From the NCBI RefSeq assembly GCF_016894385.1, contig NZ_CP069812.1, forward strand, positions 3,791,001 to 3,855,000: 64,000 nt of DNA. The letters are read 5' to 3'. Position numbers and translations under genes: made by a program. A model generated the notes under the pieces. It had not been told where the DNA came from and ran no database searches. It saw only the letters and a program-made list of their open reading frames with translations. Each line of letters begins with the position of its first letter. The first letter of the stretch is position 1. This document shows, one piece after another, positions 45,336-54,114 of this stretch. This stretch comes from Cupriavidus oxalaticus (lineage in GTDB: Bacteria; Pseudomonadota; Gammaproteobacteria; Burkholderiales; Burkholderiaceae).

Positions 45336-45713
45336 CTATTCGTCCGATTCCCCAAGGATGTCCCAAGGTACGTCCAGTGCTTGCGCCAGCCTGCGCAGCG
45401 CATCGGGGCTGCCGGCGCGCGAGCGGTTTTCGATCTGGCTGAGATACGGCTTGCTCAGCCCCGCAGCCCGGGCAAGCGCGTCCTGCGTCAGCCGGCGATA
45501 GTTGCGCCACGCCTTGACCGGATGGTCACCGGCCAGTTCGGCATCGAGCACGGCGGCCGGCACGCGGAAGCCATCGTCCTTGGCCTTTGCGGCGTCAAAC
45601 AGGGCGACGTCGCCGGCGTCTTCAATCAGGTGCTTGACGCGCTCCCACACTTCGATGGGAAGCACCGCAAATTCACGGCGGCCGTCACGTTCAATGAACT
45701 GGATTTCGGTCAT
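45336..45713 (-). CDS. Xre-family helix-turn-helix protein, antitoxin-like
   Basis: A 125-residue protein. The N-terminal part (MTEIQFIERDGRREFAVLPIEVWERVKHL) has the style of a Phd/RelB-like antitoxin segment. The C-terminal part is an Xre helix-turn-helix (LTQDALARAAGLSKPYLSQIENRSRAGS) with a tail PDALRRLAQALDVPWDILGE. The ATG at 45713 has GGAGG nine bases before it; an upstream in-frame start at 45773 is less likely. Proteins of this design usually pair with a RelE/HigB-type toxin, but no complete toxin gene is next to it. It lies between the RND genes and the haem-type cluster. Confidence 0.85.
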   Translation of the reverse strand: MTEIQFIERDGRREFAVLPIEVWERVKHLIEDAGDVALFDAAKAKDDGFRVPAAVLDAELAGDHPVKAWRNYRRLTQDALARAAGLSKPYLSQIENRSRAGSPDALRRLAQALDVPWDILGESDE

Positions 45714-46070
45714 TTGTAAGCGCCTCCACGGGGGCTGACGGCCAGTACGAGAATCGATTCGCGGCGGGGCCATTGACCTTGGCGATGATTGTTATGGCAA
45801 GGTTTCTGGGCATGGCGCTAACCGTTAGCAAACAAAGTTAGCACGGCATGGCGGAGTTGTTCAAGCCGACGAACATTGCATACATGTGGCACACACGCCA
45901 CGCCCTTGATTTAAGTCATTTACCTATCTGCCTTAAATGATAATAATTCTCGTTAACTAAAACGGCGTCACCCGCGGCCATGCGCCGGCCGGGCAGCGCC
46001 TCTACGCGAGCCAGCCACCCTGTCACGGTTTTCCGCCAGCCAAGCGTCCGATTTCTTCTGGGGAGAATCC
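45714..46070. other. Regulatory gap before the TonB receptor
   Basis: About 360 bases with no complete gene. It holds a Fur-box-like sequence at 45933-45951, an AT-rich stretch around it and a GGGGAG site before the receptor start. Near the antitoxin gene a 40-codon minus-strand frame (45691-45813) overlaps the antitoxin start but has no recognisable product. Confidence 0.5.
45933..45951 (+). promoter_or_regulatory. Fur-box-like operator
   Basis: TTAAATGATAATAATTCTC matches the 19-base Fur consensus GATAATGATAATCATTATC at 14 positions, including the core TGATAAT and ATT. It lies about 120 bases before the receptor ATG in the most AT-rich part of the gap. Iron repression of the whole cluster is the natural prediction. 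Confidence 0.65.
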
Positions 46071-48350
46071 ATGAAACGTCGCTGCCTGGCGCACCTGCGC
46101 GCCGCCGTCCGGGTCACGCCGATTGCCGCCGTCTGCGCGGCGCTGGGGTCGCCGGCCTTCGCCGCCGAGGGCGATCGCCAGACCGCCACGCTTGCCTCGC
46201 TCAATGAAGTGGTGGTCACCGCCACCCGCACCGAGGAGCGGGCCGATGCGGTGGCCTCTACCATCACCACGCGTGAAGCGCGCCAGATCGAGCGCGCGCA
46301 GCCGGTCGACGAGACCGGCCTGTTCGCCGACGAGCCCGATATCGACGTGCCGCGCGACCGCCGCCGCTTTGGCGCGGGCAGCATCAATATCCGCGGCATC
46401 GAGGACAACCGCGTGCTGCAGATGGTCGACGGCGTGCGCCTGCCGGACTTCTTCAATGGCGGCGGGCCGTCGAACATCTCCAGCTCGACGCGCGATGCGC
46501 CGGAGTTTTCGTTCCTGAAGCGCGTGGAAGTGCTGCGCGGGCCGGCGTCGAGCCTGTATGGCTCGGATGCGATCGGCGGCGTGGTGGCCTATGCGACCAA
46601 GGATCCGGCCGACCTGACGCAAGGCCGCAAGGCCGGCGGCGAGGCCGGGCTGAACTGGAACGGCATCGACAATGGCTTCGGCCAGACCGCAGGCGTGGCC
46701 GGCGGCGGCGACACCCTCCAGGGCCTCTTCATGTATGCGAACCGCAACGCGCATGAAATGAAGAACATGGGCACCGATGACTCCAACTCGGTCAACCGCA
46801 CCAGGCCCAATCCGCAGGACGTGCGCACGCAGGCATGGCTGGGCAAGCTCCTGCTCAACGCCACGCCCGGGCACAAGTTCAAGTTCACGTACGAGCACCG
46901 CGACGGCAATACCGACACCGACCTGCTGCGGTTATCCACAGCCCTGCCGCGCGTCACCGCCGCCAGCGGCAATGAAGACCTGAGCCGCGACCGCGTCAGC
47001 CTGGACTACGCGTGGCAGCCCGCCAGCCGCGTGCTGGATCGCCTGGCCGCGCAGGTTTACTACCAGGAGTCGGAGACCTCCACGCTGACCAACCAGGTGC
47101 GCAGCAACACCAGCACCGGCTGCTCGGCCACCACGCGCGGCACCAGCCTGTGCAATGTCGCGCTGGGCTTTGCCTTCAGGCAGGAGCAGACCGGCTTCAA
47201 CTTGCAGGGCGACAAGTCCTTCGCCACCGGCAGCGTCGGGCACCGGCTGATCGGCGGCATGGATTTCATGCGTACGCGCACGTCCGAATCGCGCGACGCC
47301 ACCGTGGTCAACCTGACCACCGGCACCACCACCAGGTCGCTCGCCGGCGAGAACTTCCCGGTGCATGACTTCCCCACCGGCGAGACGCGCCAGACCGGCG
47401 TGTTCGCGCAGGACGAGATGCGCTTCTTCGATGGCCGCTTCACGCTGACGCCGGGGCTGCGCTTCGACCACTACTCGCTGTCGCCGGATGGCGACGACCT
47501 GGTCTACACCAGTGCGGGCGGCCGCCCGGCGGTCAGCAAGAGCGATTCGCATGTGTCGCCGAAGCTGTCGGCGCTGTGGCAGGCGACCGACCACGTCAAC
47601 CTGTGGGCGCAATACGTGTTCGGCTACCGCGCGCCCAATTACCAGGAAGTCAATGGCAGCTTCCGCAACCCGGTGCAGGGCTATGGCGCCGCGCCCAATG
47701 CCGACCTGAACCCGGAGAAGAGCCGCTCGTTCGAGGTGGGCGCGCGTTATACCAGCGACAAGGTGCAGACCAGCGTGGCGCTGTTCGACAACCGCTACCG
47801 CGACTTCATCGAACAGGTGCAGCTGACCTGCCCGTCCGACCCCGCGTGCCTGCCCGGCCTGCGCGCGACCTACCAGTACCGCAACCAGACCAGCGTGCGC
47901 ATCTACGGCGCCGAGTGGCGCGGCGTGTGGCGCTTCCTGCCGCAATGGCGCATCGACGGCGCGGTCGCGTACGCGCACGGCACCAATGAGCAGACCGACC
48001 AGCCGCTCAACAGCGTATCGCCGCTGCGCGCGAGCGCGGGGCTGACCTGGGAGCGCGTGCCGGGCCAGGGCGCCGCGATCCGCTGGCGCGGCGCGCGCCC
48101 GGTCACGCGTACCGACGACACGTCGTTCACCTACTTCAAGCCCGCCGGCTACGGCGTGGTCGACCTGCAGGCGTGGTGGCGCTTCAACCGCTATGTCAGC
48201 CTGGCGCTGTCGGTGAACAACCTGTTCGACAAGAAGTACTGGCTGTGGGGCGACGTGCGCCAGACCGGCGTCTCGGCCACCGAGCCCGGGGTGGACTTCT
48301 ACACGCAGCCGGGCCGCACCTTCGCCGCCAGCCTGAAGCTGTCGTTCTGA
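46071..48350 (+). CDS. TonB-dependent haem-type outer-membrane receptor
   Basis: A 759-residue outer-membrane barrel with signal peptide (ending SPAFAAEG), TonB-box-like segment LNEVVVTATRTEE, plug domain (INIRGIEDNRVLQMVDGVRLP, RVEVLRGPASSLYGSDAIGG) and a C-terminal strand ending in LKLSF. The loop region FGYRAPNYQEV...NADLNPEKS matches the FRAP and NPNL motifs of the haemoglobin/haem receptor family (HmuR, HemR, BhuR). The histidine that lies between those motifs in classical haem receptors is not seen. The ATG at 46071 has GGGGAG five bases upstream. It is the first gene of the Fur-preceded cluster and would import the haem or metallo-tetrapyrrole substrate for the CobN-like protein next to it. 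Confidence 0.88.
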   Translation: MKRRCLAHLRAAVRVTPIAAVCAALGSPAFAAEGDRQTATLASLNEVVVTATRTEERADAVASTITTREARQIERAQPVDETGLFADEPDIDVPRDRRRFGAGSINIRGIEDNRVLQMVDGVRLPDFFNGGGPSNISSSTRDAPEFSFLKRVEVLRGPASSLYGSDAIGGVVAYATKDPADLTQGRKAGGEAGLNWNGIDNGFGQTAGVAGGGDTLQGLFMYANRNAHEMKNMGTDDSNSVNRTRPNPQDVRTQAWLGKLLLNATPGHKFKFTYEHRDGNTDTDLLRLSTALPRVTAASGNEDLSRDRVSLDYAWQPASRVLDRLAAQVYYQESETSTLTNQVRSNTSTGCSATTRGTSLCNVALGFAFRQEQTGFNLQGDKSFATGSVGHRLIGGMDFMRTRTSESRDATVVNLTTGTTTRSLAGENFPVHDFPTGETRQTGVFAQDEMRFFDGRFTLTPGLRFDHYSLSPDGDDLVYTSAGGRPAVSKSDSHVSPKLSALWQATDHVNLWAQYVFGYRAPNYQEVNGSFRNPVQGYGAAPNADLNPEKSRSFEVGARYTSDKVQTSVALFDNRYRDFIEQVQLTCPSDPACLPGLRATYQYRNQTSVRIYGAEWRGVWRFLPQWRIDGAVAYAHGTNEQTDQPLNSVSPLRASAGLTWERVPGQGAAIRWRGARPVTRTDDTSFTYFKPAGYGVVDLQAWWRFNRYVSLALSVNNLFDKKYWLWGDVRQTGVSATEPGVDFYTQPGRTFAASLKLSF

Positions 48351-48376
48351 GCCGCATGGGCTCAAGGAGGTATCGC

Positions 48377-51300
48377 ATGTCCCCACAAAACATAACCAGC
48401 CGCTGCCTCCGGGTGCTGCTGTGCCTGCTGATGTGGATGGGCGCGGCACACGCTGCAATGCCGCGCATCGCCATCCTGACCAGTTCGCCGGTGCCGGCCG
48501 GCAAGTTCGGGCCGCTGCGCGAGCTGGCGCAGGCGCAGGGCATGGCGCTCGATGCGCAGTACCTGGAGCGCATGCCGGCGCAGGACGTCGCGCCGTTCAT
48601 CAACGGTGCCGACCTGCTGGTCGTCGATGCGCCGCGCGACCATATCGTCACCGCGATGCTGCAACGGCTGGGACCGTTGTGGAGCGAGGCGCGCGTACCG
48701 CGCGTGCTGATCGCCACCGACCGCTACGAAGCGCATGGCGTCGACGACAGGCTCGCCGCGCAATTGCATGCGTACTACGTCAACGGCGGCCGCGGCAACT
48801 TCGGCGCGATGATGCGCACGCTCGCGGCACAACAGTTCCGCCTGCGCGGTGATGACGGCATTCCGGCACCCGTGGTGTTTCCCAAGGCCGCCTATTACCA
48901 CCCGAAGCTGGCGGGCGTGATCACCACGTCTGCGCAGGAAGCGCTGGCCGCATCGGGCAACAGCGGCCCGGTGATCGGCATCGCCATCCACCAGGCCTAT
49001 GTGTCGGGCCTCGACAGTGCCTTGATCGACGACCTGATTGGTCGCCTCGAAGCACGCCATGCGCGCGTGCTCACGTTCTACGGCCCGGTGATGGATGCCG
49101 ACGGCATCACGCGCATGGCGATGCCCGATGGCAAGCGGCTGGTCGATGTGCTGATCAATGGCCAGATCATGCTGAACCCGCAGGGGCGCAAGGCCGAGTT
49201 CGAAAAACTCGATGTACCGGTGACGCAGGTCATGCCCTACCGCAAGGGCGATGCGCAGGCGTGGCAGGATGACCCGCACGGCATCAGCCTGACCGATACG
49301 CCGTTCTACCTGGTGCAGCCCGAACTGGCCGGCGTGATCGATCCCATCCTGGCCGCCGCCACGGACAAGGGCGACGGGGCCATCGTCGGCCTGCCGGCGC
49401 AGCTCGACGCGGTCGCGGACAAGGCGCTGGCATTGGCGCGGCTGCGTCACCTGCCCAACGCCGACAAGCGCGTGGCGATCCTGTACTACAACTACCCGGC
49501 CGGCGAGAAGAACCTGTCGGCGTCTTTCCTGAACCTGCCCAGGAGCCTGGCCAGCACGCTTGCCGCGCTGCGCGCCGCGGGCTACACCACCGAAGCCGCT
49601 GACGAAGCCCGCTTGCAACGCGACCTCGGTGCCTTGCTCGCGCCGTTCTATCGCAGCGGCAAGCTGGAGCCATTGCTCGATGCCGGCCTCGCGGTGTGGA
49701 TGCCGATGTCGCAATACCGCCGCTGGCATGACGCGCAGCCGGCAGCGTTCCGCGCGGCAGTCGCGCAGCGCTGGGGCAAACCGGAGCAATCGGCGATGGC
49801 GACCACGCGCAACGGCGAGGCCGGTTTCGTGATCCCGCGCCTGCAGCTCGGCAACGTGGCGCTGATGCCGGTGCCGCCGCGCGGCGAGCGCAATGAATCG
49901 GACGAGAAGGCGCTGTACCACTCCACCACCACGCCGCTGAACCACTTCTACATGGCGGCCTACCTGTGGGCGCGCGAGAATCGCGAGGCGCTGGTGCACT
50001 ACGGCACGCACGGCACGCAGGAATGGACGCCGGGCAAGGAGCGCGGCCTGTCTGTCACCGACCAGCCCTACCTGGTGCTGGGCAGCGTGCCGGTGATCTA
50101 TCCGTACATCGTCGACGACGTCGGCGAAGCGATCCAGGCCAAGCGGCGCGGCCGCGCGGTGATCGTCAGCCACCAGACGCCGCCGTTCCGTCCAGCTGGC
50201 CTGCATACCGACCTGGTAGCGCTGCATGACCAGCTGCATGCGTACCTGCAGCAGGACGAAGGCGCGGTGAAGGACACCATCCGCCAGCAGATCCTGTCGC
50301 GCAGCGCGTCGATGCACGTGTTCGAAGACATGGGCTGGACCGCCGCGCGTGCGCGTGCGGACTTCACCGGCTACCTGGATGCGCTGCATATCCATCTGCA
50401 TGAACTCGGCGGCGCGCTGCAGCCCTATGGCCTGCACACGTTCGGGCAGTCGCAGGACGATGGCTTGCGGCTTTACACAACCATGGCGATGCTGGGCAAG
50501 GACTGGCTCAAGCGCGTCTTTCCCGAGGAGCCGGAGGAACTGTTCGCGGTCGACTACGCGCAGCTCGCGCAGACGCAGCCCTATGCGATGGTGCGGCGCT
50601 ACGTGGCCGAGGGCGCATCGCTGGATGCACTGGGCGATCCGCGCCAGCGCGAAGACATGCAGCGCGCGCGGCAGCTCTATGCCAGCCTCGATGCGTCGCC
50701 GGAGAACGCCGGCCTGCTGACCGCGCTGGCTGGCCGCCACCTGCAATCGGGAACGGGCGGCGATCCGGTGCGCAATCCCGACACGCTGCCGACCGGCCGC
50801 AACCTGTACGGCTTCGATCCCTCCAAGGTGCCGAGCCGCGCAGCGTGGAAAGCAGGCCAGGCCGCCGCCGAGGCGATGATCGCCGACTGGCGCAAGCGCC
50901 ACGGCCGCTACCCCGGCAAGCTGGCGTTCTCGCTGTGGAGCGTGGAAACCATGCGCCACCAGGGCATGCTCGAAGCGCAGGCGATGGCGGTGCTGGGCGT
51001 ACGGCCGAAGTGGGACGACGGCGGGCGCGTGGTCGGGGTCGAGCCGATTTCCGCGGCCGAACTGGGGCGTCCGCGCGTGGACGTGGTGCTGTCCGCCACC
51101 GGCCTTTATCGCGATCACTTCCCCAACCTGATGAAGTGGCTGGCCGAGGCCGTGAAGCTTGCCGCCGCGCAGCCGGAAGCGGACAACGTCGTTGCCGCCA
51201 ACACGCGCGCGGTGCGCGAACGGCTGGCGCAGCTGAACGTCCCTGCCGAGCGGCTCGATGCGCTGGCGGTGACGCGCATCTTCGCCAGCGAATCGGGCAA

Positions 51301-52372
51301 CTATGGCACCGGCCTGAACGATGCGGCCATGGCGACCGATACCTTCGGCAGCGGCCGCGAGGCCGACGCCAGGCTGGCCACGCTGTACCTCGCGCGCATG
51401 CAGTACGCCTACGGCCCCGATGAACGGCACTGGGGCGAGGCGCTGCCGCAGGGCAACCTGTATGCCGAGAACCTCAAGGGCGTCGACGGCGCGCTGCTGG
51501 CGCGCAGCTCCAACCTGTACGGCATGCTGACCACCGACGACCCGTTCCAGTACCTGGGCGGCATCGGCCTCGCGGTGCGGCACCTGACCGGCAAGGCGCC
51601 CGAGCTGCTGATCTCGAACCTGCGCGATGCCGGCAACGCGCGCACCGAGACGGCGGCGCGTTTCCTCGCCAGCGAACTGCGCACGCGCTACTTCCATCCC
51701 GGCTGGATCGAGGGCATGAAGGCGGAGGGCTACAGCGGCGCGCTGAACGTGCTCGACACCGTCAACAACTTCTGGGGCTGGACCGCGGTCTCGCCCGAGA
51801 TCGTGCGCGACGACCAGTGGACCGAGTTCGCCGAGGTCTATGTCAACGACAAGCACAAGCTCGGCCTGAACGAGTGGTTCGAAAAGAACGCGCCGCAGGC
51901 CCAGGCACAGGTGATCGAGCGCATGCTCGAAGCCGCGCGCAAGGGCTACTGGAAGGCCGACGACAAGCTGCTGAAGACGCTGGCGCAGCGCTATGAAGAC
52001 CTGGCGCGGCGGCACGACATCGTCAGCAGCAACCGCGCGTTCAACCAGTACCTGAAGCAGCAGGCGCAGGCCGCCGCGCCGGGCTACGGGTTGCAGCCGC
52101 CTGCCGCGGCACCCCGTCCGGCACCGGCGCCAACGCCGCCGAAGCCTGCCGCAGCGGCACCCACGCCCCCGCCCGCACCCGCGCCGAACCAGGCGCAGCC
52201 CGTGCAAGGCATGCAGCTGGTGGAACGCAAGCCACCTGCCGCGGAAATCGTGCCGGTGCTGTCGTGGCTGGCCGGCGGCATCGCGCTGGCGGCCGCCATC
52301 GTGGGCGGCGCGCTCAGCGCGCGGCGGCGCCAGGTCGATGCCGGCGGCAGCTGGCTGCCCGGACGGCGCTGA
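48377..52372 (+). CDS. Exported, membrane-anchored CobN-like chelatase (HmuS-like)
   Basis: A 1331-residue protein homologous to CobN/ChlH, the large subunit of class I metal chelatases. Unlike cytosolic CobN it starts with a signal peptide (CLRVLLCLLMWMGAAHA) and ends with a Pro/Ala-rich linker (~1230-1285) and one transmembrane helix (VLSWLAGGIALAAAIVGGAL) with RRR after it, so the chelatase domain should sit in the periplasm tethered to the inner membrane. CobN hallmarks include HYGTHGTQEWTPGKERGL (about residue 540), ASESGNYGTGLND and YGMLTTDDPFQYLGGIG. The ATG at 48377 has AAGGAGG six bases upstream. No CobS/CobT-type ATPase or cobalamin genes lie near. The neighbouring receptor, ExbB-like channel, DUF2149 and ChaN proteins parallel Bacteroidetes HmuS, which I recall being reported to remove iron from haem. 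The substrate and reaction direction here are inference. Confidence 0.88.
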   Translation: MSPQNITSRCLRVLLCLLMWMGAAHAAMPRIAILTSSPVPAGKFGPLRELAQAQGMALDAQYLERMPAQDVAPFINGADLLVVDAPRDHIVTAMLQRLGPLWSEARVPRVLIATDRYEAHGVDDRLAAQLHAYYVNGGRGNFGAMMRTLAAQQFRLRGDDGIPAPVVFPKAAYYHPKLAGVITTSAQEALAASGNSGPVIGIAIHQAYVSGLDSALIDDLIGRLEARHARVLTFYGPVMDADGITRMAMPDGKRLVDVLINGQIMLNPQGRKAEFEKLDVPVTQVMPYRKGDAQAWQDDPHGISLTDTPFYLVQPELAGVIDPILAAATDKGDGAIVGLPAQLDAVADKALALARLRHLPNADKRVAILYYNYPAGEKNLSASFLNLPRSLASTLAALRAAGYTTEAADEARLQRDLGALLAPFYRSGKLEPLLDAGLAVWMPMSQYRRWHDAQPAAFRAAVAQRWGKPEQSAMATTRNGEAGFVIPRLQLGNVALMPVPPRGERNESDEKALYHSTTTPLNHFYMAAYLWARENREALVHYGTHGTQEWTPGKERGLSVTDQPYLVLGSVPVIYPYIVDDVGEAIQAKRRGRAVIVSHQTPPFRPAGLHTDLVALHDQLHAYLQQDEGAVKDTIRQQILSRSASMHVFEDMGWTAARARADFTGYLDALHIHLHELGGALQPYGLHTFGQSQDDGLRLYTTMAMLGKDWLKRVFPEEPEELFAVDYAQLAQTQPYAMVRRYVAEGASLDALGDPRQREDMQRARQLYASLDASPENAGLLTALAGRHLQSGTGGDPVRNPDTLPTGRNLYGFDPSKVPSRAAWKAGQAAAEAMIADWRKRHGRYPGKLAFSLWSVETMRHQGMLEAQAMAVLGVRPKWDDGGRVVGVEPISAAELGRPRVDVVLSATGLYRDHFPNLMKWLAEAVKLAAAQPEADNVVAANTRAVRERLAQLNVPAERLDALAVTRIFASESGNYGTGLNDAAMATDTFGSGREADARLATLYLARMQYAYGPDERHWGEALPQGNLYAENLKGVDGALLARSSNLYGMLTTDDPFQYLGGIGLAVRHLTGKAPELLISNLRDAGNARTETAARFLASELRTRYFHPGWIEGMKAEGYSGALNVLDTVNNFWGWTAVSPEIVRDDQWTEFAEVYVNDKHKLGLNEWFEKNAPQAQAQVIERMLEAARKGYWKADDKLLKTLAQRYEDLARRHDIVSSNRAFNQYLKQQAQAAAPGYGLQPPAAAPRPAPAPTPPKPAAAAPTPPPAPAPNQAQPVQGMQLVERKPPAAEIVPVLSWLAGGIALAAAIVGGALSARRRQVDAGGSWLPGRR

Positions 52373-52410
52373 AGCACGGAACATACCCATCGCATCCAAC
52401 GAGACGAGAC

Positions 52411-52920
52411 ATGACACCCACCCTGCTTGAAACCCTGATGTACGACGTCGGCCAGCTGTTCCTGATCCCGACACTCGCGCTGATCGCGCTGCTGTTCCTG
52501 TATGCCTTCTGGGCGCTGGGCGAATTCGCCATGCAAGCCTGGCTGCGCGCGCGCCATCCCATTGCCAGCGGCCGCGGCTACGTGCTGGTGGCGTGGGCGC
52601 GCAAACACAGGGTGGCCGATGCCGATGCCCTCGACGTCGCCGCGCACCGCCTGCTGGAGCGTCCGCGCATCGCCACCCGCGTGGCGCCGATGCTGGGGCT
52701 GGTGGCCACCATGATCCCGATGGGTCCGGCGCTGAAGGGCCTGTCCGGTGGCAACCTGGCCAATGTGGGCGAGAATCTCACCATCGCGTTCTCCGCGGTG
52801 ATCCTGGCGCTGATCGCAGCCAGCATTACCTTCTGGGTCGTCAATGTGCGCCGCCGCTGGCTGGCTGAAGAACTGGTGTGGCTGGGGCAGTCGAAGCCGC
52901 AATGGGAGCGCGACGAATGA
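52411..52920 (+). CDS. MotA/TolQ/ExbB-like proton channel protein (HmuU-like)
   Basis: A 169-residue inner-membrane protein with about three helices: an N-terminal one (FLIPTLALIALLFLYAFWAL) and a pair typical of MotA/TolQ/ExbB (RVAPMLGLVATMIPMGPALKGL, then IAFSAVILALIAASITFWVV). The GLVATMIPMGPAL stretch matches the pore region of the family. The ATG at 52411 gives the expected short form. It overlaps the DUF2149 start by four bases. It could drive the periplasmic CobN-like protein or the receptor with the proton motive force. Confidence 0.88.
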   Translation: MTPTLLETLMYDVGQLFLIPTLALIALLFLYAFWALGEFAMQAWLRARHPIASGRGYVLVAWARKHRVADADALDVAAHRLLERPRIATRVAPMLGLVATMIPMGPALKGLSGGNLANVGENLTIAFSAVILALIAASITFWVVNVRRRWLAEELVWLGQSKPQWERDE

Positions 52921-53264
52921 AATTCCTGGAAGAGAGCGAGGCCGACGATCCGATCCTGTCGGTAGTGAACCTGATCGACGTGTTCCTGGTGGTGATCGCC
53001 GCGCTGCTGGTGGCGATTGCGCAGAATCCGGCGAATCCGTTCACGCATGACGACGTGACGGTCATCACCAACCCGGGCAAGCCGAACATGGAAATCGTGT
53101 CGCGCCAGGGCGAGAAGGTGGTGCGCTACCAGGCCAGCGGCCAGGTCGGCAGCGGCGACGGCATCAAGGCCGGCGTGGCGTACCGGATGAAGGATGGGTC
53201 GATGGTATATGTGCCGGAGCAGCCTGCGCCGCAGGCAGCCGTCCCGACGAACGAAACGAGATAA
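52917..53264 (+). CDS. DUF2149 protein (HmuV-like)
   Basis: A 115-residue protein with a short cytosolic start (MKFLEESEADDPILS), one transmembrane helix (VVNLIDVFLVVIAALLVAIA) bearing an Asp near its start, and a periplasmic tail. This topology matches ExbD/TolR/MotB, the partner of an ExbB-like channel, and the Asp in NLIDVF would be the proton-carrying residue. The start overlaps the ExbB-like gene (ATGA), showing a tight complex. DUF2149 genes occur next to exported CobN-like genes in several phyla. Confidence 0.86.
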   Translation: MKFLEESEADDPILSVVNLIDVFLVVIAALLVAIAQNPANPFTHDDVTVITNPGKPNMEIVSRQGEKVVRYQASGQVGSGDGIKAGVAYRMKDGSMVYVPEQPAPQAAVPTNETR

Positions 53265-53277
53265 AGGAAACCGCGTG

Positions 53278-54114
53278 ATGTCATTCCGCTTGCGCGCAGC
53301 CACCATGCTGGCCGCAGCCGTTGCCTTGCTGGCCGCCGGCTGCGCTGCCCCGGGCCCCTCGCCGGCTACGGTCAGCGCCGGCTTTGCCGGCAAGCCCTAC
53401 GTGCTGCTGGGCGAGGTCCATGACAATGCCGCCGGACAGCAGCAGCGGCTGGCCGCGCTGACGCGCGCGGTCGAGCAGGGCTGGCGTCCGGCCATCGCGA
53501 TGGAGCAGTTCGACCGCGAACGGCAGGGCGATATCGACCGCGCCCGCCGCGAGCGGCCGAACGATGCCGATTACCTGATCGCGCAGGCCGGCGGCGGCGC
53601 CTGGCAGTGGCCGCTGTACCGGCCGGTGGTGGCGCTGGCGCTGCAGTATGACCTGCCGCTGGTCGCGGCCAACCTGTCGCGCGCGGATGCGGGCAAGATC
53701 GTTCGCGGCGGCCTGGACGGGCTGTTCCCCGCGGACGAGCGGCAGAAGCTTGGCCTGACCGGTGCGTTGCCGCCTGACCTGGTGGCGGCGCAGACCGCGG
53801 TGCTTGACCGCGGGCATTGCGGCAATTTCCCGAAGGCGATGCTGCCCGGCATGCTGGCGGCACAGGCGGCGCGCGACGCGGTGATGGCACAGGCGCTGCG
53901 GCCTCACGCGCAGCGCGGCGCGGTGCTGATTGCAGGCAACGGGCATGTGCGGCGCGATGTGGGGGTGCCGCGCTGGCTGCCGGGCGAGGCCGGCAAGGTC
54001 GTCAGCGTGGGCTATGTGGAGAGCGCCGCGGCGCACGGCGAGTTCGACATGGCGGTGGTGGTGCCGGCGGTGGCGCGCAAGGATCCTTGCTTGCAGGCGA
54101 AGCCGGCGGGGTGA
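53278..54114 (+). CDS. ChaN-family haem-binding lipoprotein
   Basis: A 278-residue lipoprotein. The signal ends at the lipobox LLAAGC, so it should be acylated at that Cys and anchored in the membrane. The ChaN domain shows LLGEVHDN with the conserved His, AMEQFDRERQ, and AGNGHVRRDVGVP with a second conserved His. The Campylobacter homologue is iron-regulated and binds two stacked haems, and PhuW in Pseudomonas belongs to the same family. A GTG one codon earlier is also possible; AAGGAAA precedes both. Last gene of the cluster, 13 bases after DUF2149. It probably holds haem or the freed porphyrin for the CobN-like protein. Confidence 0.9.
   Translation: MSFRLRAATMLAAAVALLAAGCAAPGPSPATVSAGFAGKPYVLLGEVHDNAAGQQQRLAALTRAVEQGWRPAIAMEQFDRERQGDIDRARRERPNDADYLIAQAGGGAWQWPLYRPVVALALQYDLPLVAANLSRADAGKIVRGGLDGLFPADERQKLGLTGALPPDLVAAQTAVLDRGHCGNFPKAMLPGMLAAQAARDAVMAQALRPHAQRGAVLIAGNGHVRRDVGVPRWLPGEAGKVVSVGYVESAAAHGEFDMAVVVPAVARKDPCLQAKPAG

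Follow-up and report, generated by a model that had tools for sequence, protein, structure and literature searches.

A five-gene cluster behind a Fur-like box in Cupriavidus oxalaticus: a predicted exported CobN-family protein and its ExbB-like and DUF2149 partners

Gene layout, Fur-like box, and receptor

The DNA analyzed (hereafter the window) is a 64,000-nucleotide stretch of the aerobe Cupriavidus oxalaticus (contig NZ_CP069812.1, positions 3,791,001 to 3,855,000 of the forward strand). The cluster under study encodes, on the same strand, a TonB-dependent receptor, a predicted exported and membrane-anchored CobN-family protein, an ExbB-like protein, a DUF2149 protein, and a ChaN lipoprotein (Table 1). 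Gene calls and family profile matches bore out the original prediction of five consecutive genes from these families. The spacings of 26, 38, −4, and 13 bases fit a single operon; the ATG of the DUF2149 gene overlaps the ExbB stop codon.

Table 1. Features of the operon and its upstream box (positions in the window)
Feature	Position	Strand	Remarks
Fur-box match	45939..45957		15/19 to GATAATGATAATCATTATC, the presumed consensus
TonB-dependent receptor, haem/haemoglobin type	46071..48350	+	Best solved relative PhuR; TIGR01786, TIGR01785
CobN-family protein, predicted exported, C-terminal anchor	48377..52372	+	PF02514; presumed site H545, E584, D1054, D1055, Q1058
ExbB/TolQ-like channel protein, 169 aa	52411..52920	+	PF01618
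DUF2149 protein, single membrane helix carrying Asp21, small periplasmic portion	52917..53264	+	PF09919
ChaN-family haem-binding-type lipoprotein	53278..54114	+	PF04187; weak match to 2g5g

The box ahead of the receptor gene was scored against GATAATGATAATCATTATC, which we take to be the Fur consensus, and its score of 15 of 19 positions was equalled by none of 200 shuffled sequences; the original count was 14. Of 292 related places in named genomes, the 80 best were taken as relatives, and family counts of 81 include the window. A match of at least 13 of 19 positions also preceded the receptor gene in all ten of the loci L002–L010 and L012 (Cupriavidus and Burkholderiaceae bacterium 16), and this recurrence upholds the reading of the cluster as putatively Fur-preceded.

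Regulatory sites were compared in the 69 of 81 loci that had a receptor and sufficient upstream sequence: 46 with a haem-type receptor (window included) and 22 with another receptor type, with L044 (score 295) in neither class and L004, a Cupriavidus locus whose receptor is in pieces, placed with the other type. Fur matches of at least 13 positions were found in 28 haem-receptor operons (p < 0.01 in 21), in seven operons of the other class (p < 0.01 in three), and in 4 of 118 random stretches of the same loci. L039 and L066, window-family members from Pseudomonas, had matches of 13/19 (p 0.01 and 0.02). Zur control of the window operon was rejected, as Zur-like sites at p < 0.01 preceded just one of the 46 haem-receptor operons; none was found in the 22 others.

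The receptor scored over the cut-offs of TIGR01786 (425.5 bits) and TIGR01785 (416.2 bits), and among solved structures it matched PhuR (8the_A, 342 bits, over nearly the whole length) and ShuA (80 bits). The ChaN lipoprotein matched PF04187 with 148.7 bits. The window family supplied the profiles for the receptor, ChaN, ExbB, and DUF2149, and these may miss distant copies; on this basis, among the 61 loci with at least 2.6 kb after CobN, ChaN was present in 23 of 41 haem-receptor operons and in 1 of 20 operons with the other receptor type (p 8e-5). Haem is the likely substrate, although the receptor residues presumed to bind it are not conserved.

Placement of the CobN-family protein

The CobN-family gene begins with ATG and encodes 1331 amino acids with a PF02514 match of 980 bits; the closest named protein, 94% identical, is from Cupriavidus sp. 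Agwp_2. By eye, the N-terminal residues look like an export signal that ends in AHA, and the C-terminus carries a hydrophobic stretch followed by arginines, which supports export as predicted from the sequence. With the cobalamin-type CobN that works with CobS and CobT, the protein shares PF02514, the DD..Q motif, and an NCBIfam name, but the cobalamin-type proteins (L082 and three more complete copies) are without the C-terminal anchor.

The tree comprised 84 of 116 rows and was built quickly without a mixture model, so its deep joins are unsure. The 49 window-family rows formed one clade (SH-aLRT 99), and HmuS (six rows, including L120 of Pollutimonas), cobalamin-type CobN (nine rows, labelled by motif and score, with the cobW neighbour checked in L128 and L217 only), and BchH (three rows) each formed a clade of their own (100 in each case). 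The window family thus fell outside both the HmuS and the cobalamin-type clades, and membership of the latter was rejected; the putative export signal and anchor are also unlike cytosolic CobN. The cobalamin model TIGR02257 and four other CobN models scored under their cut-offs.

Eight HmuS features, as listed in PMC12583661, were compared. Three were kept, namely the equivalents of His538, Glu577, and Asp1208, the first lying as H545 in HYGTHG, which fits the HmuS motif HFG(T/A)HG. The other five were missing: Asp and Gln take the places of His1209 and Glu1212, Pro and Ile those of Met79 and His254, and there is no Met-rich insertion (2 residues where HmuS has 120). Where HmuS carries LSLDHxxEFMGG with His1209 and Glu1212, the window protein reads LTTDDPFQYLGG. 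Both H[YFL]GTHG and DDPFQYLGG were present in 81/81 window-family rows. Membership of HmuS was rejected on the separate clade and the five missing features. Hence, the earlier claim of an exported HmuS-like chelatase stood for predicted export and for separation from cobalamin-type CobN, and failed for identity with HmuS.

The expected parallel to hmuR-hmuS-hmuU-hmuV was evident in the layout. The hmuYRSTUV systems of Bacteroides and Porphyromonas (PMC12583661; PDB 9d26) have the same R-S-U-V order, an exported, anchored CobN-family protein, and ExbB-like and DUF2149 partners, and their genes rise under iron limitation according to PMC10434189. They differ from the window cluster, which has no HmuY or HmuT, adds ChaN, belongs to a separate clade, and resides in Cupriavidus instead of anaerobic Bacteroidota.

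A search of the 6.69 Mb host genome for PF02514 found no gene besides the window CobN gene. It had been stated that CobS, CobT, and cobalamin genes are absent here. None was found near the cluster, and CbiC/CobH, the one corrin-ring marker searched, was not found in the genome; however, an orphan CobS/CobT-like gene pair lies on the other contig (contig C1, L133:6033-9085). If cytosolic, as expected, the products of this pair could not reach the exported protein. The haem-degradation families PF01126, PF05171, and PF10615 had no member in the genome in a search that did not extend to other haem-degrading types, IsdG-type included.

Retention of the ExbB-like/DUF2149 pair across Cupriavidus

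The ExbB-like protein was assigned to ExbB/TolQ by its MotA_ExbB domain (PF01618, 25.0 bits, cut-off 22.9) and its fold (Foldseek best E 0.017); against the sequences of solved structures, its best match was MotA (E 0.49). The DUF2149 protein matched PF09919 with 94.9 bits, and Asp21 was present in 40/40 rows. Its membrane helix, and only the helix, aligned with ExbD by hhalign, PF02472 was matched in 1 of 40 rows (E 0.056), and the best match among solved-structure sequences was a designed protein. PADLOC returned nothing for the pair.

ExbB and DUF2149 were located downstream of CobN in 70 of the 80 relatives, in several of them with ChaN or a second receptor between, and in nine of the ten relatives without the pair, the contig ends less than 2 kb after CobN. 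A second TonB receptor was observed between CobN and ExbB in L026, L036, L044, L050, L051, L054, L055, L063, and L077. Beyond this family, the genome of Methanosarcina acetivorans, an archaeon with no outer membrane, contains PF02514, PF01618, and PF09919, a co-presence at the level of the genome. HmuV is listed in Methanomicrobia in PMC10100974.

Among 60 Cupriavidus genomes, 35 had both DUF2149 and PF02514, one had a partial DUF2149 only, none had PF02514 only, and 24 had neither. In eight genomes (L192, L196, L197, and L200–L204), the receptor and CobN genes were gone, while ExbB, DUF2149, and ChaN were still open frames, located downstream of the same RND genes as the full operons. The ExbB and DUF2149 signature stretches were intact in all eight. 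Median dN/dS values in these pair-only loci (28 comparisons) were 0.127 for ExbB, 0.111 for DUF2149, and 0.254 for ChaN, and those of 13 full operons were 0.141, 0.080, and 0.268, respectively, with 0.201 for CobN. The pair is under purifying selection in the eight loci devoid of receptor and CobN. Fur matches of 10 to 14/19 in these loci, several of them far upstream at the RND gene, were not used as evidence.

A tree of the neighbouring RND gene required four changes for the pair-only state, of which well-supported branches force three. This tree rests on one gene, six of its rows are less than half filled and L012 contributed none, and the direction of gain or loss is unreadable from it; loss is the simpler account because full operons occur on both sides of the tree and the site is shared.

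A second CobN-family gene is present in all eight pair-only genomes. The stretch retrieved around it contains no pair, and the sole DUF2149 of each genome is the copy at the Fur locus. The second protein has an export-like N-terminus in 8/8 and a C-terminal hydrophobic stretch in 7/8 (the gene in L210 is cut by the contig end), and in seven of the eight genomes its gene lies near a cobalamin-type CobN gene. Genus-wide, the Fur-locus DUF2149 was kept in 15 of 15 genomes whose second-type CobN is without its own pair and in 4 of 6 whose copy has one; score and place served to identify second-type copies, with score alone for that of G036 (a genome with 8% contamination), and G038 carries its second-type and cobalamin-type genes on separate contigs. 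Thus, the presence of the pair mostly tracks that of some exported CobN-family protein and not that of the receptor at the Fur locus. This pattern favors the original idea of an ExbB/ExbD-like energy source for the chelatase and suggests a role for the pair in driving the chelatase, contrary to published models in which it energizes the receptor.

On its upstream side, the operon is flanked by a divergent helix-turn-helix gene (45336-45773, minus strand) and an RND efflux set, and on its downstream side by tripartite tricarboxylate transporter genes.

Proposed function, rival explanations, and related loci

We propose, with confidence that is evenly poised, that the locus is an iron-starvation operon whose products take iron, outside the cytoplasm, from a metal-loaded tetrapyrrole that is most probably haem, with the ExbB-like/DUF2149 pair serving as the motor of the CobN-family protein. 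The receptor would import the compound across the outer membrane with the cell's ordinary TonB machinery, and the membrane-anchored CobN-family protein would bind it in the periplasm. The metal would then be removed, or less likely exchanged, at a site formed by His545/Glu584 and Asp1054/Asp1055. The pair would act on the CobN-family protein as a proton-driven inner-membrane motor, analogous to the cytosolic ATPases CobS/T or ChlI/D that act on cytosolic CobN or ChlH, and ChaN, a predicted periplasm-facing lipoprotein, may hold haem or the product.

Several observations weigh against this proposal. A Fur match of at least 13 positions was absent from 18 of the 46 haem-receptor operons. In the receptor, the residues of the PhuR chain that we take to be haem ligands (His137 and Tyr532) are not conserved and align with Thr and Asn; the FRAP/NPDL box, read as YRAP...NADLNPE in the window, could be located in 38 of 47 haem-type receptors, and the His between its halves, also presumed to be a haem ligand, in only one of these 38. 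His1209 and Glu1212 of HmuS are replaced by Asp and Gln as in cobalamin-type CobN, only Ser1014 and Ser1199 are kept among five further HmuS cavity residues (Ser1014, Ser1067, Gln1198, Ser1199, and Trp1202), and NCBIfam NF004644 names the protein cobaltochelatase subunit CobN (1380.6, cut-off 1248). No fold match at E 0.001 was obtained for DUF2149 in a search that used a poor model, and one relative (L019) was without the pair across 9.9 kb. Exceptions were also found in Cupriavidus: G076 (L187) keeps the receptor with CobN gone and the ExbB frame split despite a pairless second CobN, G050 (L190) has an open pair though its CobN is in pieces, and G062 and G067 (L218 and L219) have an open ChaN with CobN and the pair broken or gone, so ChaN may have a role of its own. 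A survey (PMC10100974) counted 981 species with hmuR, T, U, and V and 337 with hmuT, U, and V in which hmuS was undetected.

It is rather unlikely that the pair is instead a dedicated ExbB/ExbD that energizes the receptor alone, with the CobN-family protein working without it. This is the published reading for HmuU/HmuV of B. thetaiotaomicron (PMC10100974 and PMC12583661), and an inner-membrane complex with HmuT has also been considered (PMC13227078). It agrees with the presence of receptor and pair in one operon in most of the 80 relatives and with the resemblance of the DUF2149 helix to ExbD. It sits poorly with the purifying selection on the pair in eight genomes whose locus no longer has its receptor and CobN, with the other ExbB genes of the host genome, two of which adjoin ExbD-like genes, and with the occurrence of DUF2149 in an archaeon. 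A literature search that covered few subscription journals returned no published statement that ExbB/DUF2149 drives a chelatase.

It is decidedly unlikely that the iron comes from an iron tetrapyrrole other than haem or from a non-haem iron complex, the CobN-family protein then being a periplasmic binding and release protein. Such a source would explain a receptor without the presumed haem contacts and a CobN-family protein without Met79 and His254 of the HmuS haem site, but the receptor matches haem-receptor families best and a ChaN-family gene belongs to the operon. We regard as highly improbable that cobalt, nickel, or another metal is inserted into an imported corrin or chlorin and no iron is removed. 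The NF004644 score, the Asp-Asp..Gln motif shared with cobalamin-type CobN, and the related pair-bearing proteins in cob and hyp clusters point that way; the Fur-like box, haem-type receptor, and ChaN of the window subfamily and the failure to find CbiC in the genome point away from it.

In the literature found, HmuS-type haem dechelation is demonstrated for anaerobic Bacteroidota alone. With a distinct, Fur-linked family in Cupriavidus and further Pseudomonadota, this chemistry would extend to other settings, and genes that carry a cobalamin-synthesis annotation would gain a candidate function in a genome in which a search for CbiC, the one corrin-ring marker sought, found none. Should the pair power the chelatase, this would explain how enzymes of an ATP-dependent class can operate in a compartment devoid of ATP, and HmuU/HmuV would take on a role other than the published one. 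The gene-loss cases in Cupriavidus make the motor idea directly testable.

ExbB and DUF2149 are likewise found with other CobN-family proteins, in settings linked to zinc (Zur-like sites), nickel (hyp), and cobalt (cob). We tentatively suggest, at somewhat less than even confidence, that the pair is a proton motor for a superfamily of extracytoplasmic class I chelatases (iron/Fur, zinc/Zur, nickel/hydrogenase clusters, and cobalt/cobalamin clusters), a periplasmic counterpart of the AAA+ proteins CobST/ChlID, and that one motor may be shared by two chelatases per cell.

Proteins with the HmuS motif occur separately in Burkholderiales (L120 and L194), with Zur-like and not Fur-like sites in both loci. 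They are encoded at L194:1860-10137 (Cupriavidus G078) and L120:4249-13023 (Pollutimonas), read SLDHVYEFMGG, are accompanied by ExbB, DUF2149, and a receptor, and have Arg in place of Met79. Operons with a DHPFE motif had Zur-like sites at p < 0.01 in two of seven cases, both from Pseudomonas (L182 and L183); they have DHPFE where the window protein has DDPFQ, and no ChaN was seen in them. The PA1922-PA1925 operon of Pseudomonas aeruginosa likewise combines a receptor, a CobN-like protein, and ExbB/ExbD-like and DUF2149 proteins, and it is Zur-linked, both according to PMC4542158. In L119, ExbB, DUF2149, and CobN genes adjoin CobD and CobQ. On the Runella plasmid pRUNSL01 (L136), genes for a receptor, a 'urease accessory protein', ExbB, DUF2149, and CobN lie inside a hyp hydrogenase-maturation cluster, likely a nickel version of the set. 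Azonexus hydrophilus has, beside the first set and on the opposite strand, another, divergent CobN-family set that includes DUF2149 and ExbB (L055:14442-19434).

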